From contig NC_088713.1 in the NCBI RefSeq assembly GCF_963576615.1, positions 37,713,276-37,777,275 on the forward strand: a stretch of 64,000 nucleotides of DNA. The letters run 5' to 3'. The notes under the pieces were generated by a model. The model was not told the origin of the DNA, ran no database searches, and saw nothing but the letters and a program-made list of their open reading frames with translations. The number at the start of each line of letters is the position of its first letter. Position 1 is the stretch's first letter. The position numbers and the translations under genes are program-made. The stretch is from Watersipora subatra (taxonomy: Eukaryota; Bryozoa; Gymnolaemata; Cheilostomatida; Watersiporidae). This document shows, piece after piece, positions 9,890 to 53,723 of this stretch.

Positions 9890-11020
9890 TATCGTGAAAA
9901 GATATCCCCATATTGGTTGTAGAAAAATTATCGCAGGTGTGTATGATATTTTTACCATTGATTTGGGGACACTGACTGATTATTTTCTTTGATATCACAG
10001 TCATCATCATTCCTAATACAATTGCTGCAAGATGTTTCAAACTTAATGCCAAAATATTAACCCTAATGAATATACTTCTTAAACAGTTTCCTGAGCACAT
10101 TGACCAATTATAACAAAAGAGCACAGTCATTCATAGAATATGTCAACACCATTGCAACAATATGTCCCCAATTTGATGGTAAAATTATTCTCACAGGTGT
10201 GTATGATATTTTAACCATTGAATTGGGGACATTGACTGATTATTTTTTTTGAAATCACAGTCATTATCGTTCCTAATACCATTGCTGCTCGATGTTCCAA
10301 ATCTAATGCCAAAATATCAATCCCAATATTTACGCTTATTAAGCAGTTTCCTGAGCACATTGATCAATTATAACAAAAGAACACAGTCAGTCATAGAATA
10401 TGTCAACACCATTGCAACAATATGTCCCCAATTTGATGGTGAAATTATTCTCACAGGTGTGTATGATATTTTACCCATTGATTTGGGGACGTTGACTGAT
10501 TATTTTATTTGAGATAACAGTCATGATCATTCTTAATACCATTGCTGCAAGATGTCCCAAATTTAATGCCAAAATATCAATCCCAATAAATATGCTTCTT
10601 AAGCAGTTTCCTGAGCACACTGACCAATTACAACAAAATAACTCAGTCAGTCATAGAATATGTCAACACCATTGCAACAATATGTCCCCAATTTGATGGT
10701 AAAATTATTCTCACAGGTGTGTATGATATTTTAACCATTGATTTGGGGACATTGACTGATTATTTTTTTTGAGATAACATTCATGATAATACTTAATACC
10801 ATTGCTGCAAGATGTTCCAAATTTAATGTCAAAATACCAACTCCAATGAATATGCTTTTTAAGCAGTTTTCTGAGCACATTGACCAATTAGAAGAAAAGA
10901 ACACAGTCAGTCATAGACAATGTCAACACCATTGCAACGATATGTCCCCAATTTGATGGTAAAATTATTCTCACAGGTGTGTATGATATTTTAATCATTA
11001 ATTTGGGGCATAGAACAATT
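9890..11020. repeat. 260-bp dimeric satellite, array B
   Basis: The same landmark recurs near 9934, 10194, 10455, 10715 and 10974 (259-261 bp). Units within this array look more alike than those in array A, hinting at local homogenisation. Confidence 0.85.
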
Positions 11021-11239
11021 ATTATGTGTGAACTCACAGTCCTTAACAATCTAAAAACGTTGCTGTAAGATGGCCGTTATTTGACAGCCAAATATCTCAG
11101 ACATTTTTACGCTATTTTAAACATTTGTATGATTGCACTAACCAAATATGATAAAATAATGTGCAGTTTTAAGCCATGTTAATTCATCATGTCAAGATGT
11201 CTCAATTTGATCACAGAACTATTATCACATGTGCATATG

Positions 11240-18603: not shown

Positions 18604-18682
18604 ATGGCAGACAGCTTTAATGGAATTGAGCAGTTTCATGATCAGCAAGAAGGTAGAGCAGAGGATTCTAATCCGAACAAAC
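18604..18682 (+). CDS. Coding exon 1, probable translation start
   Basis: Encodes 26 residues beginning MADSFNGIEQ, acidic and polar, plus one base of an Arg codon. The ATG has A at -3 and G at +4, a favourable context. A donor GTTAGT follows at 18683, and the leftover C joins the GT that opens the next exon. A pyrimidine-rich acceptor ends at 18576 (TTTACTCAG), so the exon probably starts at 18577 with 27 nt of leader and a non-coding first exon lies upstream. Those 27 nt are open in frame, so more upstream coding sequence cannot be excluded. No signal peptide is visible, which suggests a cytosolic protein. Confidence 0.6.
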
Positions 18683-21600
18683 GTTAGTAAATTTCCAGAT
18701 ATGTCTGAAAGCATGTAAAAAAAATTCGTAATTCTCAATTAAGTATAAAATTATTACTGAAACTCATCTGTTCAGGAGTAACAAGGTTTTAGGGATTAAA
18801 ATGTTGCGAGCCTGTATTGAGAATACACAAACAGCAACAATCTGCAGAGATAATTTTTCAATATTACATTAGGTCAATGTCGCTCTTGAGAAGACCCTAA
18901 AATCTTTATTTGAACGCAACAGTGCTCTATTTTGAACCCTTATTTTAGTGTGGTCATTTATTAGAAGTGGTACTCAAGCAAAGGGTGCCGTTGTATTTTT
19001 TAAATACCTTGTCAGAATATTTAAAAAACAATGTTTCACTGGCAAATCAAATGTTGCCTACATAATATACTTTTCCGATAGCAAAGCGATTTTAAGCCTT
19101 TGAGTGGAAGAAACTTGTTAACTTACCTCCAACTTGTTTTGGATATCTAAATAATATAAATTGTTTGTGATTAGCCTATGATGCTCTTATAGCCTACGTT
19201 GCCATTTGCTAGAGCTTTACAGTTTCTGCTTCATTTTAAACATAAAGATATGCTTCTATTTCATAACTAACTTTAATAAGATTGCATAAAAGCTCATTAC
19301 AGTCATTGATATTTTTGTTACAGTTTGCAGCTATAACTCCCTTTTAATGACTAAGAGAAAATGAGTTATGCGTATTGATTCATAGTAAGCCCAGTTCACA
19401 TTACTGCGATAATACAATCAAATGAAGTGTTATTATTCTGCAAATTTAAAATTTTATACTAATAATAATCTATTAATTTTTACCAATGTACCTTTAAGAA
19501 CATGTGACATAAAAAACCATATTTACATTCAGAAACAAAAGTTAAAATTTTAAAATCAAAGTTAACATTCTTAAACAAAAATATTAGTGTTGTTAGCTCA
19601 GCCAGTTGCATTCTGATTGTTCTTCTCCTTGTATGCAGACTTTATTGCTTCTGTTTATAACCTTTGTTTATTCCTTTAGCTGTGCAATATCCTAAAAATT
19701 GTTTTTTGGCTCTAAGTTTTCTTCTATGCAGCTGAGCTAGTCAACATTAGCGGTCAAATAACTTTTAGTATAGCAAAGCATTTACGCTATGCACTGTAGA
19801 ATTATACATGTATACACTTATTGTGTGAATAAACAGAATCTGTGTGTAATAAAAATTGTCTCATAATTTTGGCTTTAAAATGCGCGATAGTCTAGGTTCC
19901 ATCATTAATTTGCAAACAGATTCACATACATCAAATTATTTAGACCGAGTTAAAAATTACTATCATTAGTCCGATTAAGTTACTCATCATTTCTATGCTG
20001 TTCCATTCAGAAATTTAATGAAAAAAAAACGGTAAAGTTCTGTGATAAATACAAATTTGGATATAAACAGAAACAAGTAACAAACTAATTGTTATTGATG
20101 TAGTCAAGTCATTAGCAGTGTTTTTTGTGGAGAATTTTTACTGAAAACTTGCTATTATGAGTTTGTAAAGATGAAAAATGTCAAAAGACATCAGTCAAAT
20201 AGAGGTGGTGTTCACATAAAAATGACATTCACTTAAAGGGTGCCACTTTATCTTGCAGCTCTTTCTTCATAGTAGTCCTAAGATAGAGGTGGAGTTAAAA
20301 TGAATGTGGCATTCAAATACAGGTTTTACAATATCCGATGTTTTGGCCTTGTGTTTTCTCTATTGGTCCGAAATTGAACTAGGCTATAGAAAGACCTACT
20401 ATTCATAGGATAATTATATTTTTACTAATATGCCTGTTAGTCTCTACGTCTTTGAGAGATCATCATGAGCAATCAGTATACATATAATTATCCGTTCAAA
20501 TAGTGCTGAGTTGGTGCAGTGGTTGTGTAGTGGTAGAGAAGTCGCTTTTGAGTCTACTGCCCAGCGCTTGATTTCCATGCAAATGAACATTTTTTCCTAA
20601 TGCTCAAGTGTGGCTTTTGACATCCAAAAATACACACACTGCTCTTATTATAGTAGAAATTACATTTTAGATTAAATTTAGAATTACCAACATCTTGTAT
20701 GATAGACAATATTTTAGTTTATTACTTGTAACAAAACTAAAAAAGCGAAATGCTCCTCTACCCAAGATCTCATGTAAACCTTTTGTTAAATTAAAACAGA
20801 TTTATGGATCACACTAGTTCTGCCATTTTTGCTATAATGAACATCATTTAATATATTTTAGCCAGTCAACCAAGGAAACGGCAATTTAAATTTTATTCAT
20901 TTTTTAAGTAAATATGAAAACTTGCTTAGTTTTAAAATATGAATCATTAATTTTTATCTCATTCTTTGTCAGTCTGTTACTCTTTACCTTAACCAACGTG
21001 AATATTTTTAAATACTTATAAAGCTCTATATTGAAAAGAGCTTCAGAAAAATTTACTTGAATTTCACATTGCAATGTAGAAAAATTGATATATATATATA
21101 TTAATGAGATTGTAGAGATTATTAAAGTGCAAGTGTATTATTTATTACTTTTCCTCTCTTTTTTTGCAGGTTATCATATTAAATACAGAGTTTCTGAAAA
21201 GCCTGAGTGGCATGAAGGATGGTTTACCATTACAGAACTCATTGATAAGATTGGCACTGACTTCATAGTCGGATTGGGATGTCACAACTACATTCCACCT
21301 CTACAAGACATTGCTCCAAATCTGAAAGTTTTGATTGTTAGAGACCTATATGACCAATCAGGACTGAGAGAGTAAGTGACTCTCAGCTTTTATGGTAGCT
21401 TATAGAGATTTAAAACAACCAATGAGGTTGTAGAAATTTTTCAAAAATGACCAACTACACATTAAACATTGCATATAGATTTATAAAGAAATTTATTCAG
21501 AAAATTAACAGGATTAATGATCAAATGCTTCAGAGTATCCTTGATTAAATTCATCGGATGTGAATTTAATTTAATTATCCTTCATATGAAATTAATTGTA

Positions 21601-24600
21601 TAATTTCATCCTCAATTTATTATTGCGAGTATTTGCTTTTTTAAGAACAAAAAAATCACATAGCATTAATCAGCATACTGAAAAATAAGAAATTGCTCAT
21701 AAATATTTATTTTTTTAACACATGTTCCTTTGTTGTAAATATCTTGACATACAATGAAAAAATAGAAAGATATTTGCACTAACATGATTTTTTTCAACAT
21801 ATGATTTGAAATTTTTAAACAGTGCATAAATTATTAATAAAAATGTTTCAATTAACTCCTGTTTTCTGCACTTTTTTTCCTATTAGGATCTCAGTTTAAG
21901 CTTAGGTCGAAATCATAGAGAAAATTTGTTTATGCAAGCAAAAAACACAGCAATGGGTGTCTATAGTTCTTTCTTCAACTTTCCCATTTTGTTTATTACG
22001 TCTAATGGAATGTCCTAGCTGTTAGTGTCATAAGCTCCACATTACTTCTCACTAAACCAGTTTTGCTGTTTAGCAATAATTATAGAAAACTGTGTTCGGT
22101 TCAAATGTTCATGAATTTGGAATCACAATAAGTTGAATAATAAGCTGATTTGTGACTAATATGTTTCTATGGCTAAAATTCGGTTGCTGTTTTGTGAATC
22201 AACAAACTTGCGCTTGTTAGAAGTGTATAGAATATATAGTTCACCCAGAGTTATCGCAAAGAAATTTAGCTTGATGTTACAATTGCTTGATAGAAACTTA
22301 ACTATAACTCGCAACTATAGTCAAACGGCGTGCAAAACCATAGCAACTGCTGAAACCAAATTTTCTCTGATGGCTGGTCACAGTCCGCAATGACCATTAT
22401 AAAGAACGAATAAATTAGAAACTTTATGGTTTGTTATAATTTAAGACCTCTATTACTAATCCAAGGTAGATTATTTTGTTTTCAGTTTGATTCATTTATA
22501 TGACATTCACATATTTTACTCATAGATTTTTTTCTATCAATTGTCTATTTTGCACTGTTTTCATGATATGTTTTTAAACTTGGCCAACAAATCAAGCACT
22601 GCGACTTTACTATTTGCTATATTGTACTCATAACAATTCCTTATCAGTACCTGGATTCAGGCGTATTTACATTTTGTCTTCGTCTTTACTATTGCGATGT
22701 TCCTCTATATTTGCGGAAAACAATTATTACTGAAATACTAAATATTATGGGTCAATATTATTATTTCTTTAAAAAGCGTCGCCTGGTGCTAACTACAAAG
22801 TACATTCTTATAAAAATTTAAAAACTGCGGTCATATGCATTGAAATATTTAAAGCGTTTTAAACTTTTTTTTTACATGCATATACATGTATATAATTGTT
22901 TGATTGAAGCACAACTTACTGCTACTTTCTGGTCCAACAATCGCCATGCACCCAGGAGGATTTGATAGCTTTTAGTTTTTTGCCCTTATTTATGATTTAC
23001 AGCTTATCAAAGTTGACTCGACTAGAAGTGCTTGACCTTTCTGGAAATTCCTTTTCTGGTGGACTACCAGATGTGATTGGTGATCTTGGTAACTTAAAAA
23101 TGCTGAACCTTAATGCATGCAAGCTAACATCTCTACCAGAAAGGTGAGTAACATTTACATACTGATAATGCTTCGAGCTATTTTTATATCAACACTAAAA
23201 GAGTTGTAGTGAGTGTTAGTTATACTATGCTTACTGGGATTTACTGCTTTAATACAAACATCTTTCTGCTGCTAGTGTTTAAAGGTATTATTTATTGGAT
23301 TCCTTTGTCAGGGCTGTTTTGTGTATTACCAATGTGCAGCTTGTAAAAAGGGTTTGTAAATATATATCACTCAGAATTATCAGTAAAAACTCAGCTTGAT
23401 AATACAAGTTTTCGATAAAAACTACTATAACTAGCAACTTAAGTCAAGCGATGTGCAAAATCACAGCATTTACTAAAACAATTTTTACTGATGCCTGGTC
23501 ACGGTCGGCAATGACAATTATCTACACGGATTAAATTAGAAAATTCATGTTATGTTATAATTTAAGAGCTCTGTTACTAATCCGAAGTAGATTATGTTGT
23601 TTTTGTTTAATTCATTTATCTGGAGTTAAATATATTTTATTTATTAATTGTTGCTATCAGCCATTTATTTTGCACTAATCTCATGGTATGTTTTTAAGTT
23701 TGTCAAACAATTTAAGCACCGTGACCTTCACTATTGGCTATATTGTATTCATAGCAACTCCTTATCAGTAACTGGATTCAGCTGTGTTTGCCTTTTGTCT
23801 TCTTTTTTACTATGCGGTGTTTTATACGATGTTTTTTTTTACGCTTGCAGAAGACTGCTTATTACTGAAAGACTAAAGGCTATATGTTAATATTATTATT
23901 ATTTTGAAAAGAGTTGTCTGGTGCTAACTACTAACAATATTCTTATAAAGATTACAAACTGTGATAATATGCATTGAGATAATTAAAATGTTTTGAATTT
24001 ATCTTTACATATATATACTTGTTTGAGCAAAAAACAACTCATTGCTGCTATCTGGATCTAACGCCAATCATCACGCAAAACTGATCCCAGGACGGTTCCA
24101 TATTGCTTAGTTTTGTCCTTATCGATGATTCACAGCTTCTCAAAGTTGACTGAATTAAACAAGCTTAATCTTTTTGGAGAAATCTTTTTTGTTGGAGTAC
24201 CAAAAGTGTTGGTGGTTTTATGTTAATATAATTATTCCTCTGAAAAGGGTCATATGGTGCTAACTACTATAACCTTATTATGAAAATTACTAAACGTGAT
24301 AATATGCATTGAAATATTTAAAATACTTTAGATTTATTTTTGCATGTTCTTACTTACATATTTATACTTGTTGGAGTGAAACACCACTTATTGCTACTTT
24401 TTGGATTTGATAATCACCATGCCAAAATTCTCCCAGGAAGATTCGATAGCTTTTAGTTTTTATACTTATTTATGATTTTCAGCTTCTCAAAGTTGACTAG
24501 ACTAGAAGAGCTTGAACTTTCTGGAAATATATTTTCTGGTGGACTATCAGATGTGTTTGGCAATCTTGGTAACTTAAAAAAGCTGAAACTTTATAGATGC

Positions 24601-27600
24601 GAGCTAACATCTTTACCAGAAACGTGAGTAACATTTAAAGAATGTTAATCAGTCCAGCTATCATTTTATCAATGGTAAAATATAGTTGTCGTCAGAGTGC
24701 ATTACATTACGCTTACCGACTTTTGCTGCTTTTTTTATGAAAATGTCTCAGCTCCCCACTTTTCAAGGTCCTAATTGATGGAAACCCTTGTAAGGGCTGT
24801 TTTGCAAATCACCAAACTTGCGCTTGTAAGAAGTGTATAAAAATATATTTCACACTGAATTCAGAGCTCGATGTTTCTAGTGTTTAATAGAAACTCTACT
24901 ATATCTAGCAACTATATTCATATTGTGTGCAAAATCACAGTGGTTACTGAAACAAAATTATCTCTGATGCCTTGTCGCTCTCTGCAACATCCACTTTAAA
25001 GAACGAATCTATTAGAAACTTTACGGTTTGTTATAACTTCAGACTTCCAATAATAATTCAAGGTAGAATTTTTTTGTCAGTTTAATTTTTATATTTGGAA
25101 TTCACATATTTGACCCATTTATTTGTTTCTATTGATCATCTTTTTTGCACTGATTTTTGGTATGTTTTTGAATTTGTCAAACAAGTCAAGCACTGCGACA
25201 TTCACTATTTGTTATATTGTATTCATAACAGTTCTTTATCAGTAAATGGATTTAGGTGAATTTGCTTTTAGTATTCGTATTTACTACTGCGATGTTTTAT
25301 ATGATGTTCTCAACAATTGCAGAAGAGATTTATTATTGAATGGCTAAAGGTTATATGCTAATGTTATTATTTCTTTGAAAATACTCATCCGGTGCTAACT
25401 ACTAATGAAACTTTTTTGTAAAATTTACCAACTGTGATAATATGCATTGAGATAATTAAAATGTTTTGAATTTATCTTTACATATATATACTTGTTTGAG
25501 CAAAAAACTGCTCATTGCCGCTATCTGGATCTAACGCCAATCATCACGCCAAACTGATCTCAGGACGCTTAAATATTTCTTAGTTTTTGTCCTTATTGAT
25601 GATTCACAGCTTCTCAAAGTTGACTCAAAGAAAAAAACTTAATCTTTTTGGAGAAACTTTTTTTTGGAGTACCAGATGTGTTGGTGGTTTTATGTTAATA
25701 TAATAATTCTTCTGAAAATGGTCATCTGGTGCTAACTACTAATAACATTCTTATAAAAATTACAAACCGTGATAATATCCATTGAAATATTTGAAATTCT
25801 TTAGATTTATTTTTGCATGTACTCGCTTACATATTTATACTTGTTGGGTGAGCCACCACGTATTGCTACTTTCTGGATTTGATAATCACCATGCCAAACT
25901 GCTCCCAGGAAGATTCGATAGCTTTTAGTTTGGCTGTTATTTATGATCTACAGCTTCTCAAAGTTGACTAGACTAGAAGAGCTTCACCTTCCTGAAAATA
26001 ACTTTTCTAGTGGACTACCAGATGTGTTTGGTGATCTTGGTAACTTAAAAAAGCTGATCCTTGATACATGCAAACTAACATCTCTACCAGAAAGGCGAGT
26101 AACATCTAAAGACTGATAATGCTTCCAGCTATCTTTTTATCAATTGTAAAAAAAGATTTGTCGTCTGTGTTCATTACATTACGCTTTCCAACTTTTGCTG
26201 CTTTTCTAAGAAGATGTCTCGGCTTCCAACTTTTCAAGGTCTTAATTGATTGAAACCTTTGTAATGGCTGTTTTGTGAATCACTGAACTTGCCCTTGTAA
26301 GAAGTGCATAAAGTTATATTTCACACAGAATTTAGAAATCGATGTTACGAGTGTTTAATAGAAACTCTACTATATCTAGCAACTATAGTCAAATCGTGTG
26401 CAAAAACACAGTGGTTACTGAAACAAAATTATCTCAGATGCCTGGTCGCTCTCTGCAACAACCACTTTAAAGAACGAATCGATTAGAAACTTTTTGGTTT
26501 TTCATAATTTAAGACTTCCATTAATAATTCGAGGTAGATTTTTTTGTCAGTTTAATTTTTTTATATGGAATTCACATATTTCACCCATTGATTTTTTCTA
26601 TCAACCATCTTTTTTGCACTGTTTTTGTGGTATGTTTTTAAATTTGTCAAATAAGTCAAGCACTGCGACATTCACTATTTGTTATATTGTATTCATAACA
26701 GATCCTTATCAGTAAATGGATTCAGGTGAATTTGCATTTTGTATTCGTATTTACTACTGCAATGTTTTATACATTGTTCTTTGCAATTGCAGAAGATATT
26801 TGTTATTGAATGGCTAAATGTTATATGTTAATATTATTATTTCGTTGAAAATACTTTTAGCAATGTGGGAGCATTGCTAGACTTTTGACTATTAGATTCC
26901 TTTTGAGGTTACGAACTTTACTGGTTCAATGTAAGTGTCAACTTTATTTATCTTTACTTTAATGACGCCACACGACAACCATGAAGTCTAAAATAAAACA
27001 GTACAACTAAAAAATAGAACAAAGTAGTCTTAATTAGCAAGTGTAACACAATGTAACATTATTTGACAGAAAAGAAATGATACAAATTGATACATATTAT
27101 AATAGGGAACAGTGGTAAATACCTTTTGCCTCCTGTAGTTTCATTTGATTATAAAACAAGCTCCAGTGATTTGCTTACAACATTAAGACTGGATCGATTT
27201 TACTAAACTGGCTGACTGCGCGACCGGCTAGAAGCAAGTTACGAAAACCGCATGCCATCAACACAGATATCGCGTCATTGGCTGACAGAAATAGCCCCAC
27301 AAATGCAAACCAATCACACAGCAGCCCACCGAATTCAAATCAAGCCATCAGTAACTGATATACTACCAAGGCAGCCTGAAGGCTGAAACAAGCAAAAATT
27401 GTATCTAACATTTTATAAACTGCATAGGAATTACACATAATCCTTACAATACTCATCTGGTCCTAACTACCAATTAACCTTTTTGTAAAAATTACAATTT
27501 GTGATAATATGTATTGAGATACTGAACATTTTTTGAATTTATCTTTTTATATATAGACTTGTTTGAGCAAAGAACAACTCGTCTATACTATTTAGATCAA

Positions 27601-45600: not shown

Positions 45601-48600
45601 CAGACTGCGGTGACAACAAACTAACCGAAATTCTGTCTTGTGTGTTCAAAATGCAAAATTTACGCGCGCTGAGCATCTCTCACAACAAGAACCTGACAAA
45701 GATCGATGAGAAGATTCTGAACCTCAAACATCTCACCAGTCTTAATTGTGATGGCTGCTTTAATCTAGTTTCTCCTCCTTATGCAGTGTGTCAACAAAGT
45801 TTAACAGCAATTAAAACATTTTTTGAAGACCTTGCATCAGAAACACCAGTTGAACTGACGATTGTTCCAGTTTCGGTAGTTGGCCATTCAATGTCAGGGA
45901 AAACAAGCCTCATTAGATCCTTGCAATCAAGAAGCCGTGAACTCACTAACCGCTCCGAGACCAACATGCTAGATGAAACAACAAAAGTATTTCAAATAGA
46001 AGGAGTGCAACTAGACAATTCATACGCCAAAATGATTGATCACGGGGGTCATGAAGTATATCATATCACCTATCGGTACATTCTTAAGGAACGCAACATT
46101 CCGTTGATCGTGGTTAATTTGAATGCATTTAAATCTCTGGCCAAAGAAAAAGGAAAAGAAGCAGCAACTGAGGAACTCTGCTGGCAGTGGTTATCTCACA
46201 TCTATCTTGCATGTCCTTTGTTAATAGAGTCTCCACTTTTAGTCCTTACTCACTCTGATAAAGTTTCAGATTCGGAGCTACAGAGTTACAAAGATTGTCT
46301 GTTTAATCATTCTAAGAAACTCCGAGATGAGATGCTGAATGTTGAGCAACTAAAAAGTAGAGCAACAAAGCAGGTTCTCCATAAAACCAAATTTTTATCC
46401 AACAAGGGAGTTGAGGTGTTCAATGAAGAGAACACATTCGTGTTTGGCAAAGAGTCACACCAAATAGAAGATCTCAGAAAAGCTCTTGATTTCCGTTGCA
46501 GGAAGTACAAGGTTTCTCTACCACAGAAATGGAATGATATGTGCAACTTTGTTGAAAAAAGTTTGACAGAACCTGTAGTCACTGTTTCAGAAGTTCTGGC
46601 TAGCTTTCCTGGAGAGAGCTCAATGCATATTTTGGGTTACATGCATAACATAGGTGATGTTCTTTGGTTCCAGTCGGTAGAGTCTTTGAAAAGTTACATA
46701 TTCCGTGACATCCCAGCGATGACTAAAATGATTTCAATTCTCTTTCATCACCAGTCAGACCGTCTTTGGAAAAATAGAGCAAATAATTTTCGTGAGTTTG
46801 ATTTTAAAGGAAAACCTATTAGTTTTGCTTTATATCAACAGTTTGTCAAAAACTTCACTCGAAATGGCATCCTTGAAGAAGCGCTATTACACCATCTCCT
46901 CAAACTTGAATCAGACTTTCAACCCGACATTGCCATCGAGTTGTTAAAAAGCTTTTGGATTGTACAAGGGCCCATAATATTGAATTCTAAAAAGCATAGA
47001 TATGGCTACGCAATACCATATTTTTCACCGAAGACCATGAACGAATTTTTGGGGGAAAAGAGAAGGTATGAGCTTCGGTTACACGTCAATTTGAGAGGAC
47101 TTCCACTCCCCAGATATGGGTTCCAACTAATGACAGTTGCTGTGTTGAACGAGCTTTCAAGTGACATAAACACACAAAATATTGCTACAAATGGTGCTGT
47201 GGTGTATCATGATGAGTGGCAAGTGAGTTTGGTACATGATGTCTGTGGTCAAAAAGTTACTCTGGAAGCTAGTTCTGACGAACCTCATTTTGGAGATATC
47301 TGGAAACAGCTTGAAAATTCAACCAATAGCATCTTGAAACTGCTTTCAAATGCATGGATTGCAAGTGAACCATATATTCGTATCTTCTGTGGTCATTGCC
47401 TTTTTCTAAAAGACCCAAACCCAGAAGATTTTGTCGATCCAGATTGGTTCTGTCCAAAAGGTAAAGCACTCGCAGTCACACGATATTTGGGAGTAGAAAA
47501 GTTGACTTGTGAAAAGCAGGCAGAGATAACTAGAATTAAAACGCCGACTGTACCATCAGCCCTCATGAGACCTTGTGAGTTAAAATGTCAACTAACTAAA
47601 TTTACTAAAGTAGTTTAATCTCTACTAACATGTTGATTATACCTCATTAATGTTTTACCGATTTATACTTAGGTCATCAGCTTGATGAAGAGAAGAAAAT
47701 TATCATACAGGACTATCTAGACACTCTACCTGTGGCATCTGCAGGTACACATGCCTTGTAAATAATTTTTTTTCTTGCCATAAAATTCCAACATATGTTT
47801 TACAGCTCTAATAACACTTGGTGACTGACTTGCATTCAAACAGTAGTTTTCTTTGGTGATAGCAAACCAACTAGTTCAATTGAGGCTAAGTAGAAACTTA
47901 GCGTAAGATCAAAACTTTAGATGACTATGTGATATTCACTATCAATGGCTTGTCATGTATTTCACTAATTGTCCAGATACTGCCTACAAAGTTCTGAAAG
48001 ATTAAATATTTCCGTAGTAAAACTGCTAGTAGTTAATTATTAATGATCACCTAAGTCTAGCTAATGATCAATTGTTGAAATAAAAAGATGAAAGTTATGT
48101 TTAAAAAGTTACTCGTCATTATAATAACTAAGCCTACTTTTCTGGCACTTTCATGTTAGTTTTTAAATGTTTTTAATTTTCTGTTGCTTGCGAAAAAAAC
48201 TGCTGACAACGAAGCCTGAATAGAATGTTTTAGACTAACAATTTATGGGAAGCAAGTAGCATGCTTGATGACTTCTTACTGCTTTTCCGTATTTAATAAA
48301 TACAATCAATATGAAACACCATTTTCATTTATATTTAAATCCTGATAGCAGTGTATCATTGTTTTTAATACTCACGAAAAATCTTTATAATATCAGACAC
48401 GTTTACCAATTTTGACGATTTGAAAAAAATTATTAAAACATGAGGTACTAGTTATGCAAAAGTATAATATATCATTGCATCAAATACTTTAATGTTGCCT
48501 ATAAGTTTTGTGAGAATGCTCTTATTACAGTTTGATACTTTGTTCAACTTATTTTTCATAAGCACATCATAATGTTAACATATTAGCATATAATTTCACA

Positions 48601-51600
48601 GCTACAGAGCAGGTTGTGGCACCGGTTCATCAACAACAAGAAAGGCTTACAATTCCTGTTCAACCTGAGCAAGATGGCGACTCAAGTGACAGCGCACTCT
48701 CTGACACTTTAGACCAGGCTTCTGAGGAACTGACTGTGAAACTCTGCTCTAAAACTTCTGTTAAAGATCTCTTTTACTCAGATGAGGTGAGTCCTTTTAG
48801 CCTGTAAAATAATAACTAGTTTAATGAATGCTAAGCAATGGAAAGGTCAGTCCATCTATTTAAAATTATCTGTAACCAAATTCATGTGAATTGAACTAAG
48901 TTCTTAACATCTCTAGTTGTGGGTTCTATTTGTGACTTTTGTTAACACAGGTTTACAGAATGAGCACCATGAAAGGACGCTGCCTCCTTATTAACAACAT
49001 AACTTTCACATATCCTGATGGAACCTCTGATTACAGACAAGGGTCTACTTTGGACGGTCAGAGAATCTTGTCTCTCTTTGACAAACTTGGATTTCTTTGC
49101 TTCCGTGAGGAAAATCTCTCCGGTCAGGTTTGTAGTGAAATATATTTATATGGTTTAACAATAGTTTAAAATAAAGGTACATTATTATTGAAAACTTTGT
49201 TTAAATTTCACAAACAACCGATGATATTTGAAAAATAAATGTTTTAAAAGTGTTAAACTATATTTCAATTTTTGTTGTTGCATGTTTGAAATATTATGAC
49301 CTCACAATATTTTAATGCTATGAAAGCTTAACCGTATCATGTATTCAATATGGCTGCAGGTAACATGAGTAAAGGAGTTTGATGTAAATAAATTTCTCAT
49401 TGATAATCAGTTTGTGCATATTAGTCTGTTAGTACTCAAGTTAGCATACACATTAGTATGAGTGTTAGTGTCTGTGTCAGCGTAGTGTGCACAATGGTGT
49501 AGGTATTATTGTGTGTGTATGTACTTTGTTGTGTATGTGCATGCTTTCATTTGTGTGCACGTGTGTGCATGTGTGTGAGCACGCATATGTGTGAGCACGC
49601 ATATGTGTGAGCACGCATATGTGTTTATGTGTGTGTTTGTGTGTGTGTTTGTGCGTGTGTGCGTGTCTGTATAAACGTTATACTTTTACATATTTTAGCT
49701 GATGTCATTCAAACTTCACACATATTTGTTTTGTGTTTTCCATCAGGTCACCAAAAATATTTTATTTTAAAACTTGATTTGGTTCCTGAAAACCAGCTTC
49801 TCAACTACTCTCCTGCTAATCGCATTAAGAACAATTATCATCTATGAACATGCTCTTGGATTTTTGTTTTGAAGACCTGCTAGAAATTTGCATTGCAAAT
49901 TGACACGCAGGGGTCTATAGGCTGTGTGCTGTCGGCTTAAATTAAATTAAACAATATCCCGGCCAAGGCTTTGCCCAATGCTATATAAAAATACAACAAA
50001 ATTTGTCAAATGTTAGCATAGGGTAAAATAGTTAATATTTATCTCAAATATTGCTGCAAAGCACTTCCAATATTTTACTAGAATTTCGAAATTAGAACCA
50101 AATAGTATTAATTTTGTAGCAGTGTCACTATTCTGTTTGTGAAAAGCATTATTTAAACCTATTACATAACTTTAAGCTTCTAATGGTTGCCTTACAGCGA
50201 ATGTTGGAAGTGATCAGTAATGAAACAGAAAGGCCTGAGCATGTAAATTATGGAATGTTTGTATTAATCATCCTCAGTCATGGTTCTGAGACAGGCATAT
50301 CTGGGACTGATGGAACAATGGTACAAAGAACAGACATTAATAATGCCTTATCAGCTCAGAACTTTCCAGCAATGGCAAGGAAACCAAAACTACTTATTAT
50401 TCAGGCATGCTCTGGTGGTGAGTTACCTGGTTTCTGCAGCTATTTGTAAAAACTAGTCTGTCCTGCATTGCTCTACTCATAGATGTAATTGACATGAAAC
50501 AGTCATCTATTAATACTCATCTGACCATACTAAACAATTACAATTTTATATATTGTAAATCAAATTGCTTCCACTCTATCTTTCCATATTATTGGTTACT
50601 AAATGCAGTAAAACTATAATCAATGATTAAACCTCTGCAAACAATATTTATAACACATCTGAGATAAACATTGCAAATTTCTTATTTATTGTAGGATTTC
50701 AGGATAGAGTCACGGTGCATGACGCTCAACCTTCAACTTCATCATCTCATCCAGGTTTTTCTCTCCCATCAGTTACTAGCTTACCTACCAGTGGAGTCCC
50801 TCTCTGCTTGGCCGCAACGCTAACAACACTTTCTGAGCCAACCCCATCCTCTGCCCTGATGCACCTGCCAAGGTCTCATGCAGTTTTGAACACTGATGAC
50901 CTGCTAATCTGGAAAGCCAGTTTTCCTGGTAAACATAAGAACTGACAGTTGATTGAGAATATGTTTGCCATTCAATAATGTACTTTTTTACCTATTTAAA
51001 TAGGCTGGTTATTACTCTAGTGAAAATTTTGAGATAAACTTATTTGATGCTCAGCACATCTTATGTTTAAGAATGATTTCAGTTCACCAGCCTATCTAGT
51101 ATAACACACTTAAACTCTGTTCTAATGTGGCAGGTCACCTGGCATATAGGAATCGGCGATTCGGCTCCTGGTTTATTAATGCTATTGTCGAGTCCCTTTG
51201 CTAACATGCCTGTCATCGAGACCTTAAGACTTTGTTTGAGAGACAGGTAAGAGAAAATTTATGTTCCAGTTAAAGTTTATGCCAATTTTAGCGTTGTAAT
51301 TGTTTATTTATAATATTCGGCTTTAGAAATTACAAAAGTACAAATATGAGCCAAACACAATTAAAATTAGACCTAAAAATTTGAAGAGATCCCAATAATT
51401 GCTTTGCTCAGGCATGATATTCATTCCTCATTGTCTTCACAGTTGATGGTAAATTCAGTTGCGTTTGCCTTGATTGGGGTTAACAAAGATGAGTAATAAT
51501 CAGAATGAATAATCATCTGTTGACACGGGATGACAGCATGTATGGTGGTGCATCCACAGAAGCCATATCCTGATGTAATAATGAACATGTTACTGTTTCC

Positions 51601-53723
51601 ACACTACATTATGAAAACACTTGCTTAATAATAAACGAGTTCAATGTATTAATTTTTGCGATTGGATTCATTTCTTTGTCTTCCATAAAGTAATCACTGT
51701 CTCGAATGAACATCACTAAAAGAAGATAACTCCAAGCGTATAGATGCATGTAGGACTAAGTTAATATTCACTGTATACATAAATACTTCACTTTTATCGA
51801 TTGATGAAGACCGGCATCCCTCACGGTATATGAAAATTTTCAAAAAAGAAGCTAGTTTTTAGAGTATGTGTATGAGCCAAAATCTTAACACCAGTACAAT
51901 TAAACTAATTTTTACACATGTATTTATTTTTTATAAGATAATTACATTAAAATTGTCTTCATTGACTTTCAGTTCATATTTCAAATTCACTTCTAGTACT
52001 TTAAGCAAGAGAATGCTGTTATGTAGTACGTGCGCCGTTTGGACTTTTTCTAGTCTGAATATTTGTACTTGTGATTAATTTGATTTGCTGTGGGAAGAAA
52101 ATAACATGTTTTTAAACATGAGAAAAAGTATAACCTTTGGCAGTGCCTTTATCATATATAGTAAACACACCTTTTAATTAACTTGTAAGCATTTTCCTTT
52201 AATTTTTAAGTTCTTTACACGATATTGAAAGTAGTAGATGCTTAAGAGGCTCACTGAGCAGTTTAACAAGTATGTTTCACTCACACCCTTAAAGGCATAA
52301 CGCTGCACAAAAATAGCAAACAATGACTGCCGCTTGCACACCGATGCTCACGGAAGCTTCTCCTGTGTCAGCATTAAAAATACTATGTATTCTTTGTATG
52401 GGTATTCATGCATTTTAGTTCTTTTATGTTGGATTTCAATTAATTTTCTTGTGTTTTAAATTTTTCGTTGACTGTCATTAACCGCAGAGCACTGAAACCA
52501 GGAAGGGTGAGCCGCAAAGTAGCAAGGGATTACTGTGCCACACTTTATGATAAATGGATTTTGACACTTTGTCATGTATAATTTTACAGGGTATATGTAA
52601 AGAATTTCAAAGAGCCATTTTGCTTGCAATAGGTGTTAGAATGGCTTCTATAATAGCATACTATCCTAGCAGTTATTCTTGCAGGTACAATTTTAAACCA
52701 TCTCACACCAGTGTTGGTGTAGGTATATACTTTCAGCAACTACCATTGTTTCCTAGGAGTTATCTTCTTTCTTTTGGCAAAAGATGATAATTTCTTTTGG
52801 ATAATAAGCTTTCGAGTTATAATTGCGATCACTGATATATAGTTGAGGGGTGACTAGCTTTAAATTTTAATCTAAATAAATATTTTTTCTTGCTTCTTAG
52901 AAAAAGCTGGAATTGCAAAATACCATAGTGCTATTCTTTTAGCGAGCATTTTGTTAGCATTCTGTTATTCTAGCAGAATGCTACGTATTGTAGCATTTTG
53001 CTATTCTAGCAGAATGCTACGTATTGTAGCATTCTGATATTCTAGCAGAATGCTACAATAGCGGCTATCAACCTTCATGGTCAATTTTTTTACAGGACCT
53101 TTTCAGAGACTTTTAGTTGCTGAAATAATTGATCTGAAGATGTTCGCTCATATTTTTATAGTATTGGCATTAAATCTATAAAAAAAATTGGCATTTTCCT
53201 TTTTTTCACGTCTATCGCGAGTCATGCTTGAAGTTCATCATTTTAAATTAAAGGATATGTATGCACAAAGAGTTGCTAAATATTATTAAAGCAATGTCGA
53301 ATCTAACTATATGAATGAGAACTTTAAACATGTGTGTACTTATTCAACACGTTTCTAAAAGCTTCAGGCTTAGTTGGTTGAAAATTCTCAAATCTTTTTT
53401 TAAATGTTACAAAAAGTTTTATTATTTCAGGCAGCTTTAGGTTAAAATTTACCTGTTTTCATGTTTGAAAAGTGGTTATAAGTCGAGTGTTAAATTAGAC
53501 TTTGCAGACAATTGTAAAGAGTTACTATGTTTGTAAAGTTGTGATATTTATAGAACCATTACAAATGTATACTCGGTGACACTGTTTTCTGCTACACTAG
53601 ATTAGGGAGAAAGTGAGAAGGCAAAGCATACAGTATGGAGATGGACAACAGCCAAGTATGGATTGCACTCTTCGAAAGAAACTGTTTTTGTTCCCTGGAT
53701 ACAACCCATCTAACCCAGATTAA
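18604..53723 (+). CDS. LRR-Roc-COR-caspase fusion gene (20 coding exons; in-frame TAA in p10)
   Basis: Predicted multidomain protein of 1598 codons joined from exons 18604-18682, 21170-21371, 23003-23143, 24483-24623, 25954-26094, 28015-28155, 29205-29345, 30675-30815, 32135-32275, 33610-33750, 35071-35211, 41412-41531, 45572-47574, 47673-47744, 48602-48786, 48951-49127, 50198-50417, 50695-50928, 51134-51246 and 53601-53723. Every junction has matching phase and the total (4797 nt) divides by three. Domains: N-terminus 1-93, LRRs about 94-645, Roc GTPase about 655-870, COR about 900-1224, linker to 1310, caspase p20 1311-1443, linker to about 1510, p10 to 1598. Roco proteins pair a Ras-like GTPase with a COR dimerisation domain, and caspases are Asp-specific Cys proteases. 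An activating receptor or cell-death role is inferred. Codon 1544 is TAA, so the reference allele predicts 1543 residues. The alternative is two adjacent genes (Roco; caspase), but open, phase-matched linker exons join them. Confidence 0.75.
18683..21169 (+). other. Intron 1
   Basis: A 2.5-kb intron with GTTAGT donor and TTTTTTGCAG acceptor. It contains a tRNA-like SINE fragment at 20507-20584 and short pieces of a dispersed repeat (AGAGGTGG...TTCAAATA words near 18960, 20200 and 20290, also at 39920). Otherwise nothing recognised. Confidence 0.5.
20507..20584 (+). repeat. tRNA-derived SINE-like fragment
   Basis: GTAGTGGTAGAG (20527-20538) resembles a pol III A box, and CGCTTGATTTCCATGC (20565-20580) resembles a decayed B box followed by CATGCAAATG, as in many tRNA-derived SINE heads. 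It is too degenerate to be a functional tRNA. Confidence 0.4.
21170..21371 (+). CDS. Coding exon 2, unrecognised N-terminal module
   Basis: A 202-nt exon with acceptor TTTTTTGCAG and donor GTAAGT, entered at phase 1 and left at phase 2. It encodes about 67 residues: a Trp-containing stretch (KPEWHEGWFTITELIDKIG), then IVGLGCHNYIPPLQDIAP, then an LRR-like strand (LKVLIVRDLYDQSGL) running directly into the first tandem LRR exon. The C-terminal part is plausibly an N-cap for the LRR solenoid. I do not recognise the first 45 residues as any named domain. Confidence 0.7.
21372..23002 (+). other. Intron 2
   Basis: The first 800 bp are AT-rich with nothing recognised. From about 22170 the sequence is intron of the LRR array unit, showing that the array starts inside this intron without a surviving exon of its own. 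Confidence 0.5.
23003..23143 (+). CDS. LRR exon 1 of the tandem array
   Basis: A 141-nt exon, phase 2 on both sides, with acceptor ATTTACAG and donor GTGAGT. It encodes 47 residues, i.e. two LRRs of about 23-24 residues. The strand residues are VLDLSGNSF in the first repeat and NLNACKL in the second, and it is the only copy with Ile in PDVIG. Its sequence and about 850 bp of the following intron are almost identical to the exon at 28015 and its intron. Confidence 0.85.
24136..24226 (+). pseudogene. Broken LRR exon (partner relic)
   Basis: After a good acceptor (TTCACAG) the sequence reads like an LRR exon (FSKLTELNKLNLFGE), then loses its second half and reaches TAA with no donor. It lies 347 bp upstream of the intact exon at 24483. 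The tail (TTTTATGTTAATAT) matches intron sequence found elsewhere in each unit, which points to an internal duplication that fused a half exon to intron. Confidence 0.7.
24483..24623 (+). CDS. LRR exon 2 of the tandem array
   Basis: A 141-nt, phase 2-2 exon with acceptor TTTTCAG and donor GTGAGT. Variable residues are ELELSGNIF in the first LRR and KLYRCEL in the second. It carries Ser in place of Pro in the usual LPDVFG motif and ends in PET because the last exon base is C rather than G. Confidence 0.83.
25610..25698 (+). pseudogene. Broken LRR exon (partner relic)
   Basis: An acceptor plus FSKLT-like start is followed by an A-run (AAAGAAAAAAACTTAATC) that disrupts the LRR. The sequence then follows the relic pattern GTGTTGGTGGTTTTATGTTAA, with no second LRR and no donor. 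It is 344 bp upstream of the intact exon at 25954. Confidence 0.65.
25954..26094 (+). CDS. LRR exon 3 of the tandem array, GC splice donor
   Basis: A 141-nt, phase 2-2 exon encoding two LRRs with variable residues ELHLPENNF and ILDTCKL. The donor reads AAAG followed by GCGAGT instead of GTGAGT. GC-AG introns are a known minor class and the rest of this donor matches consensus, so it may splice normally or be skipped; skipping would keep the frame. Confidence 0.75.
26856..27453. mobile_element. 598-bp insertion in the intron after LRR exon 3
   Basis: Intron sequence shared with sister units is interrupted here. The flanks carry AATACT at 26850-26855 and again at 27448-27453, consistent with a 5-6 bp target duplication. 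The left part starts with a short hairpin (AGCAATG, then CATTGCT). It contains no open frame. A solo LTR or non-autonomous DNA element are both possible; the family is not recognised. It explains why this array unit is about 2.06 kb rather than 1.46 kb. Confidence 0.6.
27674..27757 (+). pseudogene. Broken LRR exon (partner relic)
   Basis: An acceptor followed by FSNLT-like codons with an in-frame TGA (GACTTGAAG, frameshifted relative to good copies) and a TTAGAGAATTTTTTGAG tail. It has no second LRR and no donor, and lies 341 bp upstream of the intact exon at 28015. Confidence 0.6.
28015..28155 (+). CDS. LRR exon 4 of the tandem array
   Basis: A 141-nt, phase 2-2 exon with donor GTGAGT. Variable residues are ELNLSGNYSFGG and NLNACKL. 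It is almost identical to the exon at 23003 apart from the first LRR strand and loop, so coding change exceeds the change seen in the surrounding intron. Confidence 0.84.
29205..29345 (+). CDS. LRR exon 5 of the tandem array
   Basis: A 141-nt, phase 2-2 exon. First LRR VLDLQWNNF has bulky Gln-Trp where the other copies have Ser/Pro-Gly/Glu/Arg; second LRR NLDICEL; it ends PET. The unit is only 1190 bp from the previous exon because the relic partner exon is absent from this intron. Confidence 0.83.
30337..30420 (+). pseudogene. Broken LRR exon (partner relic)
   Basis: An acceptor and FSKLT-like start, then a poly(A)-like run (CTCAAAAAAAAAACTTAATC) and the common relic tail ending in TATGTTAATAT. 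It lies 338 bp upstream of the intact exon at 30675 and has no usable donor. Confidence 0.6.
30675..30815 (+). CDS. LRR exon 6 of the tandem array
   Basis: A 141-nt, phase 2-2 exon with donor GTGAGT. Variable residues are ELYLSRNNF and NLDRCEL. The terminal motif is LAER where most copies have LPER, the only Pro-to-Ala change at that LRR position in the array. Confidence 0.83.
31795..31878 (+). pseudogene. Broken LRR exon (partner relic)
   Basis: Starts as FSNLT after an acceptor, then a one-codon loss shifts to GACTCGAAGAAAAGAGC, and the tail TTTTTTGAGTATTAG matches the relics at 27674 and 34732. It lies 340 bp upstream of the intact exon at 32135. Confidence 0.6.
32135..32275 (+). CDS. LRR exon 7 of the tandem array
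   Basis: A 141-nt, phase 2-2 exon. Variable residues are ELHLSENNF and ILGACKL, with Tyr in the terminal LTYLPET. The donor is GTGAGT. Confidence 0.83.
33262..33352 (+). pseudogene. Broken LRR exon (partner relic)
   Basis: Very similar to the relic at 24136 (FSKLTELKKLNLFGE, then TTTTTTGTCGGAGTACCAG) with a TTTTATGTTAATAT tail and no donor. Sharing this longer form with the 24136 relic marks the two units as a related subtype. It lies 348 bp upstream of the intact exon at 33610. Confidence 0.65.
33610..33750 (+). CDS. LRR exon 8 of the tandem array
   Basis: A 141-nt, phase 2-2 exon beginning FSKLTQLEELHLSGNNF (Gln instead of Arg), with second LRR MLILGTCEL and a GTGAGT donor. The acceptor reads AATTTACAG. 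Confidence 0.83.
34732..34812 (+). pseudogene. Broken LRR exon (partner relic)
   Basis: An acceptor, FSNLT-like start, TGA in the continuing frame, and tail TTTTTTGAGTATTAG; no second LRR and no donor. It lies 339 bp upstream of the intact exon at 35071. Confidence 0.6.
35071..35211 (+). CDS. LRR exon 9, last intact exon of the array
   Basis: A 141-nt, phase 2-2 exon. Variable residues are DLDLSGNRF and NLDACRL. The donor is GTGAGT. Downstream units have decayed, so this marks the 3' edge of the recently amplified block. Confidence 0.84.
36244..36427 (+). pseudogene. Two decayed LRR exon fragments
   Basis: The first fragment reads SSKLTRLKELKLSGNNF and then GGLPDLFGGFG before losing the second LRR; the only nearby GT would give an 86-nt exon that breaks phase. 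A second acceptor and exon start (FSKLTQIG) follows at 36394 and stops within 30 bp. An open frame runs through both only because intron sequence between them happens to lack stops. Confidence 0.6.
36738..38843. mobile_element. hAT-superfamily element, non-coding
   Basis: The left end is CAGGGGTGTCAAACTCA and the right end GTGAGTTTGACACATGTG, the diagnostic hAT-type terminal inverted repeats found with GGGCC-rich subterminal sequence, here near both ends. Flanks are CTATAGAC (36730-36737) and CTATAGAT (38844-38851), a 7/8 match to the 8-bp target duplication expected for hAT. No transposase frame is visible. It sits in the intron between LRR exon 9 and the divergent LRR exon. Confidence 0.8.
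36903..37782. repeat. Foldback repeat nested inside the hAT element
   Basis: The left arm 36903-37018 and right arm 37668-37782 are imperfect inverted repeats over about 115 bp. Shared blocks include TGACTTGCAACAAAA, TGTAGGTGCAAAA and GGAAATGTGATTACAAG with their complements. The 650-bp centre has no convincing coding frame. This may be a separate MITE that inserted in the hAT element, or part of that family's own structure. Confidence 0.65.
38852..40183 (+). other. Intron sequence with decayed array remnants
   Basis: GGGGCATGGTTTGCTGGAAC (near 38881) recurs in diverged form near 42790 and 43610, so this stretch belongs to old copies of a repeat unit. No exon survives. Confidence 0.45.
40184..40700. 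mobile_element. piggyBac-like MITE, copy 1
   Basis: Begins TTAACTCTTTCGCTACCG and is alignable by eye over about 500 bp to the copies at 41910 and 57493. Shared internal words include TTGCATAAATACCAGTTGTA and GGTGGAATAGCAAATTTA. Its right end is degenerate and the terminal TTAA is not clear. It has no coding capacity. Confidence 0.55.
41412..41531 (+). CDS. Divergent, shorter LRR exon (exon 12)
   Basis: A 120-nt exon (40 codons), phase 2-2 like the array exons, with acceptor TTGCATTGTAG and donor GTTAGT. It begins FSELFQLEVLELANNAS, clearly an LRR start, and ends YQPER where array copies end SLPER. The middle is seven codons shorter and the second LRR has lost its LxL pattern. It may be an old array member still under frame constraint; whether it is included in transcripts is unproven. 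Confidence 0.6.
41910..42423. mobile_element. piggyBac-like MITE, copy 2
   Basis: A 514-bp element bounded by TTAA on both sides. The left end is TTAACTCTTTCGCTACCG; the right end CAGTGGTGCAAGTTAA is a weak inverted match. A TTAA target and a CTCTTT-type terminus fit piggyBac-derived MITEs. The 63-codon open frame inside is not conserved in the other copies. Confidence 0.6.
42424..45302 (+). repeat. Old, decayed array units upstream of the Roc-COR exon
   Basis: Diverged copies of one unit recur: TTACTGACCTTTACTG (41626), TTACTGACTTTTACTG (42485) and TTGACCTTGACTAG (43354) begin similar stretches, each followed by TGGTTTGGCTGGTAC-like words. None keeps an LRR exon with both splice sites. Confidence 0.5.
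45303..45339. repeat. Perfect hairpin, 37 bp
   Basis: AACTTTAGCATTATTAT is followed within a few bases by its exact complement. It is the first of two adjacent palindromes just before the Roc-COR exon. Confidence 0.75.
45368..45416. repeat. Near-perfect hairpin, 49 bp
   Basis: CATATCGACATTGCCTTTAT and its complement flank a tiny AT loop. Ending 155 bp before the acceptor of the Roc-COR exon, it could form a stem in the intron. A small foldback transposon is an alternative. Confidence 0.75.
45572..47574 (+). CDS. Exon 13: last LRRs, Roc GTPase and COR domain
   Basis: A 2003-nt exon with acceptor TCTGGTTGCAG, entered at phase 2 (AG+C gives Ser) and left at phase 1. It holds two to three LRRs (MQNLRALSISHNKNL; LKHLTSLNCDGC) and the PPYAVCQQSLTAI cap typical of Roco LRRs. 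Roc motifs: P-loop GHSMSGKTS (codons 661-669, nt 45882 on), switch-2 DHGGHE (713, nt 46038 on), and THSD for guanine recognition (783, nt 46248 on). COR begins near FPGESSMHILGYMHNIGD. The C-terminal CGHCLF and nearby Cys resemble the MFHAS1-like end. MFHAS1/LRRK-type Roco proteins are the closest family; there is no kinase domain. The donor at 47575 is GTGAGT. Confidence 0.9.
47575..47618 (+). other. Alternative C-terminus if intron is retained
   Basis: Reading through the donor adds 14 codons beginning at the shared Cys (ending TKFTKVV) and then TAA at 47616-47618. A transcript retaining this intron would make an LRR-Roc-COR protein without the caspase. No poly(A) signal is evident immediately after, so this is only a possibility. 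Confidence 0.35.
47673..47744 (+). CDS. Exon 14: linker between COR and caspase
   Basis: A 72-nt exon with acceptor ATTTATACTTAG and donor GTACAC, phase 1-1. It encodes CHQLDEEKKIIIQDYLDTLP and a few small residues, a short amphipathic helix-like piece. It matters because it joins the Roco exon to the caspase exons in frame. Confidence 0.6.
47745..48601 (+). other. Intron between linker exons
   Basis: AT-rich intron of 857 bp with a GTACAC donor; nothing recognised inside. Confidence 0.5.
48602..48786 (+). CDS. Exon 15: Gln-rich and Asp-rich pre-caspase segment
   Basis: A 185-nt exon with acceptor TAATTTCACAG and donor GTGAGT, entered at phase 1 and left at phase 0. It encodes a Gln/Pro-rich stretch (VHQQQERLTIPVQPEQDGD), then SSDSALSDTLDQASEEL and VKDLFYSDE immediately before the p20 start. 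Several Asp followed by small residues (SSDS, LSDT) could be processing sites, since caspases are usually cleaved after Asp between prodomain and p20. No CARD, DED or death domain is seen. Confidence 0.7.
48951..49127 (+). CDS. Exon 16: caspase p20, N-terminal half
   Basis: A 177-nt exon, phase 0-0, with acceptor GTTAACACAG and donor GTTTGT. It encodes the classic p20 opening: VYRMSTMKGRCLLINNITF, then DYRQGSTLDGQRILSLFDKL and GFLCFREENLSGQ. Arg at codon 1339 (RQGS) aligns with the family's conserved Arg that binds the P1 aspartate of substrates. The order and spacing are typical of metazoan caspases. Confidence 0.88.
49128..50197 (+). other. Intron within caspase p20
   Basis: Contains a GT-rich microsatellite (about 49500-49675) with three 16-bp repeats of GTGTGAGCACGCATAT starting near 49575. 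The rest is unremarkable. Confidence 0.6.
50198..50417 (+). CDS. Exon 17: caspase p20 with catalytic His and Cys
   Basis: A 220-nt exon, entered at phase 0 and left at phase 1, with acceptor GTTGCCTTACAG and donor GTGAGT. It holds FVLIILSHGSE with catalytic His (codon 1397, nt 50279-50281) and LLIIQACSGG with catalytic Cys (codon 1440, nt 50408-50410). The usual active-site pentapeptide is QAC(R/Q/G)G; Ser at the fourth position is uncommon, but the essential residues are kept. Confidence 0.9.
50695..50928 (+). CDS. Exon 18: caspase inter-subunit linker and p10 start
   Basis: A 234-nt exon, phase 1-1, with acceptor TTTATTGTAG and donor GTAAAC. It starts GFQDRVTVHDAQPSTSSSHP, continues with about 50 residues rich in Ser, Thr, Pro and Leu, and ends TDDLLIWKASFPG, the conserved start of p10. 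The linker is longer than in most effector caspases. Asp in QDR, HDA and TDD are candidate cleavage positions. Confidence 0.82.
51134..51246 (+). CDS. Exon 19: caspase p10 core, interrupted by TAA
   Basis: A 113-nt exon with acceptor AATGTGGCAG and donor GTAAGA, entered at phase 1 and left at phase 0. It encodes GHLAYRNRRFGSWFINAIVE, matching the p10 motif with the second substrate-binding Arg (codon 1526). After SLC comes TAA at 51202-51204, and the same frame continues HACHRDLKTLFERQ, exactly the family's next helix. One base change from a sense codon would account for it. No good donor lies before the stop. Confidence 0.85.
52700..52905. repeat. Dispersed ~210-bp repeat, copy 1
   Basis: Starts CATCTCACACCAGTGTTGGT and shares AGCAACTACC, GAGTTAT, GCGATCACTG and TTTTAATCTAAATAAA with 54697-54910 in the same order. 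Possibly the 3' tail of a retroelement. Confidence 0.55.
52956..53060. repeat. 36-bp hairpin minisatellite, three units
   Basis: Three units of the form AGCATTCTG-TATTCT-AGCAGAATGCT, each able to fold on itself, separated by ACGTATTGT. Confidence 0.8.
53601..53723 (+). CDS. Exon 20: caspase p10 C-terminus and natural stop
   Basis: A 123-nt terminal exon with acceptor CTGCTACACTAG, phase 0, ending TAA at 53721-53723. It encodes IREKVRRQSIQYGDGQQPSM and then DCTLRKKLFLFPGYNPSNPD. The Q-P-S-x-x-x-TLRKKL-x-FP pattern is the conserved last strand of caspases. Its preservation argues that the upstream TAA is recent, polymorphic or erroneous. Confidence 0.83.
   Translation: MREKVRRQSIQYGDGQQPSMDCTLRKKLFLFPGYNPSNPD

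Follow-up and report, generated by a model that had tools for sequence, protein, structure and literature searches.

A 64-kb stretch of the genome of the cheilostome bryozoan Watersipora subatra (G000, C6:37713276-37777275; hereafter the window, to which all positions refer unless a contig is given) contains 20 exons coding for leucine-rich repeats (LRRs), a Roc-COR GTPase and a caspase, one after another. We are confident that this LRR-Roc-COR-caspase fusion is the architecture of a very large family of W. subatra proteins. With moderate confidence, the window gene is assigned to this family of one-protein receptors, composed of LRR sensor, Roc-COR GTPase, acidic linker and C-terminal caspase. 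The pattern is real, goes beyond chance and is larger than a first-pass annotation of the same DNA had suggested; the window copy is broken in the p10 part of its caspase and is probably a defective allele or gene. All eight matches found in a protein search with the window protein belong to W. subatra.

The family was traced in the W. subatra assembly (783.7 Mb, 239 contigs), the span of which is given as 783.70 Mb in the retrieved part of the published genome description (PMC12902671). Using window Roc-COR as query (66 of 220 candidates scored), at least 66 matches were found, none of them with an internal stop. A family member from contig C3 (76 of 195 candidates scored) gave at least 76, two with an internal stop and a few of them partial. 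Together they define at least 126 distinct Roc-COR places, distributed over C9 (39), C3 (33), C2 (16), C6 (14), C8 (13), C4 (8), C7 (2) and C10 (1); these counts are lower bounds and members close to RefSeq protein P0015 may be missing from them. Three caspase queries were used in parallel, with the best 150 of 158, 119 and the best 150 of 151 matches taken. Among the matches listed, a caspase exon lies downstream on the same strand within 5 kb of 102 of the 126 Roc-COR exons and within 15 kb of 120. A caspase is located upstream in a single case and on the opposite strand in none, an internal control by which random co-occurrence of the two kinds of match is rejected as an explanation. The lone upstream caspase (C2:49121818) is itself downstream of a neighbouring Roc at C2:49124915. 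The smaller set of matches agrees with this picture (56 of 66 downstream, none upstream or on the opposite strand). Two Roc-COR loci on C6 (C6:40132985-40147476 and C6:39888171-39901676) are apparently followed by two caspase copies each, about 3 kb and 11-12 kb downstream; alternative caspase modules are possible there.

Most splice sites between the two domains are conserved as well. In all 33 loci read, the Roc-COR exon ends with ..L..PC, the same TGT codon making a T|GT donor. The acceptor of the first linker exon occupies the same place in all 13 loci with a match, window included, and that of the first caspase exon is conserved in all 22 such loci. The acceptor of the second caspase exon is in place at 14 of 16 loci, both misses (L001 and L008) being caspases with no Roc listed. 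Among 21 W. subatra RefSeq models retrieved, eight carry both Roc-COR and caspase (P0001, P0002, P0003, P0005, P0006, P0008, P0015 and P0018), and P0002, P0005, P0008 and P0015 contain all parts from LRR to caspase, although P0002 stops slightly short in p10. The earlier proposal of one gene joining LRRs, Roc-COR and caspase is thus upheld as a family architecture; it fails for the reading frame of the window copy, which is interrupted in p10.

Exon-by-exon reconstruction of the window gene exactly reproduced the 20 exons and 4797 nt of the first-pass annotation (18604-53723, plus strand), with all phases compatible. Exon 1 (18604-18682; N-terminus MADSFNGIEQFHDQQEG...) has a near-identical counterpart at the start of RefSeq paralog P0002. 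Exon 2 (21170-21371, phase 1 to 2) codes for a pre-LRR region homologous in P0002 and P0004. These are followed by nine LRR exons, each 141 nt long, of phase 2-2 and coding for two LRRs: 23003-23143, 24483-24623, 25954-26094, 28015-28155, 29205-29345, 30675-30815, 32135-32275, 33610-33750 and 35071-35211. A diverged LRR-like exon of the same phase (41412-41531) precedes the 2-kb Roc-COR exon (45572-47574), which has LRR sequence at its start and ends with ..PSALMRPC at the conserved donor T|GTGAG. Next come linker exons 1 (47673-47744) and 2 (48602-48786), the latter with an acidic SD..LSD motif, and five caspase exons: p20 start (48951-49127), remaining p20 with SHG and QACSG (50198-50417), intersubunit linker and p10 start (50695-50928), p10 with RNRRFGSWF (51134-51246) and p10 end with terminal TAA (53601-53723; CTLRKKLFLFPG, 40 aa of which are identical in P0001). 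Introns are GT-AG throughout, except for a GC donor (GCGAGT) at LRR exon 25954-26094; the remaining LRR exons have GTGAGT.

Every motif named at first pass is present in the window protein: tandem LRRs, P-loop GHSMSGKTS, DHGGH, a region of COR length, and SHG, QACSGG and RNRRFGSW of the caspase. Pfam recognizes LRR_8 (2.3e-61) and Peptidase_C14 (2e-37, over the whole profile). Roc scores 2.4e-5 and 25.0 bits, just below the cut-off of 27, which P0003 passes with 27.3. The match to COR-A is weak (0.074). G1, G3 and G4 motifs of the Roc GTPase (GHSMSGKTS, DHGGH and THSD) are all found. The COR assignment was made because the AlphaFold model of a relative, P0001, matches known Roc-COR structures (LRRK1, LRRK2 and CtRoco, along with caspases); in sequence, Roc-COR is remote from solved structures (12-17% identity). 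By its Roc G motifs and a COR region predicted to follow Roc directly, the protein is classified as a Roco protein.

The caspase domain finds its best match of known structure in CED-3 (2.3e-23), and the alignment runs on past the premature stop described below to the end of p10. The catalytic His-Cys pair and the acidic P1 pocket are present in the window copy (SHG; QACSG; R before x-G in p20; RN before GSWF in p10). Three positions, Arg-Gln-Arg, which we take to form the caspase pocket, are conserved in the window copy and in P0001, P0002, P0005, P0006, P0008 and P0009; in P0015 the p10 Arg is replaced by Lys. Catalytic His and Cys are kept across the full caspase models. Complete p20 and p10 are found in P0001, P0005, P0006, P0008, P0009 and P0015, and not in the window copy. 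No CARD, DED or PYD prodomain appeared among Pfam families up to E 1 for the full window protein, a search in which the filters of HMMER remove most hits with values higher than roughly 0.1.

Two linkers carry candidate cleavage sites. The third caspase exon evolves fast except for an Asp-[Ala/Pro/Ser]-x-Pro site after QACxG, present in seven of ten sequences with that caspase motif: TVHDAQP in the window, TVPDAQP in P0001, VIPDPQP in P0003, VMTDALP in P0005, VTTDALP in P0006, PVVDAEP in P0008 and VVLDSQP in P0009. P0002 reads TVPDAQS, and P0015 and P0018 have no match; in these two, Ser/Thr-rich repeats of STTVNSTSAPQ type are numerous in the p20-p10 linker. The motif SD(S)(E/A)LSD or SDLSD lies between COR and caspase in the window protein and 14 of the 21 RefSeq models (P0001-P0003, P0005, P0006, P0008-P0010, P0015, P0018 and P0024-P0027), the window and P0002 having Ala where others have Glu or Asp. 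ELSDY matches in P0017, P0019 and P0022 were rejected as instances of this motif, being located inside COR.

Purifying selection acts on Roc-COR and on the catalytic exons of the caspase. The ratio of nonsynonymous to synonymous substitution rates (dN/dS) of Roc-COR is 0.16-0.31 between the window and 17 paralogs with estimable dS (L010-L026); for 12 more distant ones (L027-L038) dS is saturated. In comparison of the window with paralog L002, caspase exons 1 and 2 give dN 0.072 and 0.058 and dS 0.478 and 0.313, respectively. The linker exon 3 gives 0.069 and 0.068, and exon 4 gives dN 0.012 with dS 0. The combined caspase dN/dS is 0.31 for this pair, 0.30 for window and L005 (exons 2-4) and 0.35 for L002 and L005.

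The LRR exons vary mainly at ligand-facing, concave positions. They form an array of nine genomic units (22966-35333, plus strand), each with one intact LRR exon and spaced by 1.46-1.48 kb in six of eight intervals, the other two being 2061 and 1190. In the surrounding region (22936-36332), 17 matches to LRR exons are found, namely the nine intact exons and eight copies of decayed or partial appearance, seven of which sit about 340 bp upstream of an intact exon and one outside the array near 36177. At ten concave xxLxLxx positions, the proportions of nonsynonymous (pN) and synonymous (pS) differences are 0.254 and 0.116; at the other 36 codons they are 0.063 and 0.068 (position permutation, p 3e-4). 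Mean divergence is 10% between the exons, compared with 23% and 41% in two stretches of flanking intron (60 and 50 nt) aligned without gaps.

Roco proteins dimerise and caspases are activated by induced proximity. By analogy with both, we propose, as a reading consistent with the domain layout and somewhat better than even, that ligand-gated Roc-COR activates the fused caspase. Ligand bound by the LRRs would change the nucleotide or dimer state of Roc-COR, and this change would bring caspase domains together. Self-cleavage would follow at an Asp of the p20-p10 linker and perhaps also at the LSD motif ahead of the caspase; as caspase sites, the two would permit processing between the subunits and release of the caspase. 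Freed or processed caspase might finally cut downstream targets and lead to cell death or inflammation-like signalling. Since LRRs diversify in large gene clusters, they point to a role in sensing pathogens or non-self. The N-termini of P0008 (MGAKSS), P0015 (MGCSLS) and P0029 (MGNGQS) resemble N-myristoylation signals; some family members may, as judged from sequence, sit on membranes.

Several observations weigh against the picture of an active one-protein receptor. The window copy carries a nonsense codon in p10, and the p10 part of the AlphaFold model has low confidence. Among the matches listed, six of the 126 Roc-COR exons have no caspase within 15 kb, some of which may simply be unscored. 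The linker-2 acceptor is found at its extrapolated place in just 13 of 24 loci, judged from partial matches, most misses being distant paralogs. One of the two domains is missing in 13 of the 21 RefSeq models: 12 have no annotated caspase, though P0010 among them extends over the first caspase exon, and Roc is absent from P0009. P0001 uses the Roc exon, linker 1 and the last exon of the window gene and differs from linker 2 to caspase exon 4. It begins inside the Roc exon, hence has no LRRs, and takes its caspase exons from the next paralog, about 184 kb downstream (C6:37947912-37950791). A second caspase block at this locus, sought as an explanation for P0001, was found neither in the window nor in the following 30 kb. 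The P0001 exons correspond to those of the paralog at C6:37.948-37.951 Mb; the join may be either a transcript or an annotation artefact. The fusion is known here only from genes and gene models. Finally, the LRR selection test concerns one gene with nine non-independent exons and few synonymous changes.

Contrary to the single open frame reported at first pass, an in-frame TAA stands at codon 1544 (51202-51204), where paralogs L002 and L005 have AAA (Lys). The spliced sequence thus has stops at codons 1544 and 1599, and the last 55 residues are lost. These include the C-terminal p10 segment, which forms the caspase dimer interface, so we expect the window product to have weak activity, to act as a decoy or to be inactive. 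The window copy might even be a plain pseudogene of a real family, from which no functional protein is made. Besides the stop, the eight LRR-exon copies of decayed or partial appearance fit this view, as does the RefSeq model, which bypasses window caspase exons 1-4. On the contrary, codons 1-1543 are open, splice sites are intact and a truncated protein with intact LRRs and Roc-COR could be made. Moreover, mRNA decay requires a stop more than 50-55 nt upstream of the last exon junction; since the TAA lies 42 nt before it, decay is not expected. The pseudogene is a tenable, if somewhat doubtful, explanation. Bypass of the stop via an earlier in-frame donor is unsupported: by eye, one weak site (GTCGAG) precedes the TAA in the right phase.

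As to the caspase itself, it might serve as a scaffold or self-cleaving switch with no distant targets, Roc-COR signalling through other partners as in other Rocos. The Asp sites flanking the caspase would fit self-cleavage only, and, according to the consulted part of PMC7159879, many caspase domains in conflict systems of bacteria have no catalytic activity. We consider this unlikely in view of the purifying selection on catalytic exons and of the retention of His and Cys, and, P0015 apart, of the pocket residues.

Caspases of this kind also occur alone. When caspase exons up to 6 kb apart are joined into one locus, the matches listed give 182 loci, of which 58 (22 on C10) lack a listed Roc in the 20 kb upstream; three such places (two on C10, one on C6), searched with family members, show no Roc in about 8.6-9.7 kb upstream. 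These three were taken as related caspases and left out of the family count. It is very improbable that the family consists of two neighbouring genes, an MFHAS1-like LRR-Roc-COR gene and a separate caspase, co-duplicated as a cassette: solitary caspases, the 12 RefSeq models ending before the caspase domain, P0009 with its caspase and mere COR remnant and the 184-kb join of P0001 would suit it, whereas all Roc-COR exons read end at one codon in a donor and not a stop, linker-1 and caspase acceptors match in place and phase, and the domains are fused in eight RefSeq models, or seven if the odd P0001 is set aside. Family-related caspase exons with no Roc listed form a cluster at 20.25-23.19 Mb of C10, two of which were checked and have none in about 9.4-9.7 kb upstream. 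At 4882-7072 of L052 (C10:20245000-20254999), minus-strand open frames resemble, by eye, reverse transcriptase of a retroelement without long terminal repeats.

Relatives outside the RefSeq set were sought in protein and profile searches, in which scoring was limited to candidates with words in common with the query. Among such candidates, the eight and six hits of two protein searches were all from W. subatra itself. A profile search gave 36 matches, of which 21 are the W. subatra RefSeq proteins, one is a generic Roco (47 bits) and 14 lie on short contigs. The latter 14 sequences are Roc-COR exons of 29-43% identity that end at or shortly after the Roc-COR exon. In 12 of them ..PC is followed by E or K, as expected for an unspliced TGT|GAG or TGT|AAG donor; two stop at PC. 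The Roc-COR family therefore reaches beyond the RefSeq W. subatra set. A scan of viral contigs gave one weak match (24%).

Elsewhere in the window, one 260-bp tandem repeat forms two arrays (3329-4448 and 9927-11041) of 4.3 copies each. Rfam gave no match in the window.

In open-licence PMC literature, assessed mostly from titles and abstract openings, we found no description of an LRR-Roc-COR-caspase protein, in line with the earlier remark that no such family had been described, and little on bryozoan immunity. Bacterial and animal conflict proteins that couple NTPases or adaptors to caspases are treated in the accessible portions of PMC8195603 and PMC7159879, where bryozoan allo-incompatibility is named as a setting of cell death.

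We tentatively suggest, at slightly less than even confidence, that bryozoans possess a repertoire of well over a hundred receptors, each with its own executioner. Under diversifying selection, new ligand specificities would arise from tandem LRR exon arrays of matching phase, Roc-COR would gate the signal and the fused caspase would fire with no adaptor. Among animals, such a repertoire would correspond to plant resistance genes and the ROCO receptors of brown algae, possibly with a use in colony self/non-self recognition. Animal pattern sensors are thought to reach caspases via adaptors or oligomers (NLR, ASC and caspase-1; APAF1 and caspase-9). More than 100 proteins that each unite sensor, GTPase switch and caspase would represent a different solution from adaptor coupling, parallel to the shuffling of phase-2 LRR exons in ROCOs of brown algae. 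Protease activity would then be a direct readout of Roc-COR switching, which is relevant to LRRK2 and Parkinson's disease.

Like Roco proteins of LRR-Roc-COR type (MFHAS1, LRRK1/2 and Chlorobium tepidum Roco), the bryozoan proteins have LRRs followed by Roc-COR. They differ in that the C-terminal output is a caspase, not a kinase or nothing, and in number, a single genome having at least 126 Roc-COR exons. Most of the RefSeq models retrieved are labelled MFHAS1 homolog, a name given by similarity. MFHAS1 orthologues are LRR-Roc-COR proteins with no catalytic C-terminal domain; caspase exons after 120 of 126 loci set the present family apart from them.

Judging by the retrieved sections of PMC11378527, brown algal ROCO receptors likewise possess tandem, expanded and diversifying phase-2 LRR exons upstream of ROC-COR, which are shuffled and alternatively spliced. 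Each of their 72-bp exons encodes one LRR and nothing follows COR, whereas here 141-nt exons encode two LRRs and a caspase follows. Placozoan Roco proteins share lineage-specific expansion and immune-type partner domains, CARD and TIR included, as far as the available excerpt of PMC4104024 goes; its figure legend has a caspase recruitment domain and no caspase.

With metazoan caspases (CED-3, caspase-9, -8, -3 and -7), the family shares p20-p10 fold and catalytic His and Cys. It is distinguished from them by the attached Roc-COR, by a long and variable p20-p10 linker and by the lack of a listed death-fold prodomain; initiator and inflammatory caspases are characterized by CARD, DED or PYD, none of which was seen among Pfam families up to E 1.

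A functional analogy is with inflammasome and apoptosome, in which NLR or APAF1 act with caspase-1 or -9: repeat sensor, NTPase switch and proximity-activated caspase would be common to both. Here, however, they reside in one polypeptide, a Roc-COR GTPase replaces the STAND ATPase and no CARD, DED or PYD is listed. Since the NTPase is Roc-COR and not the NACHT or NB-ARC of NLRs, the W. subatra proteins may work like an NLR but are not NLRs.
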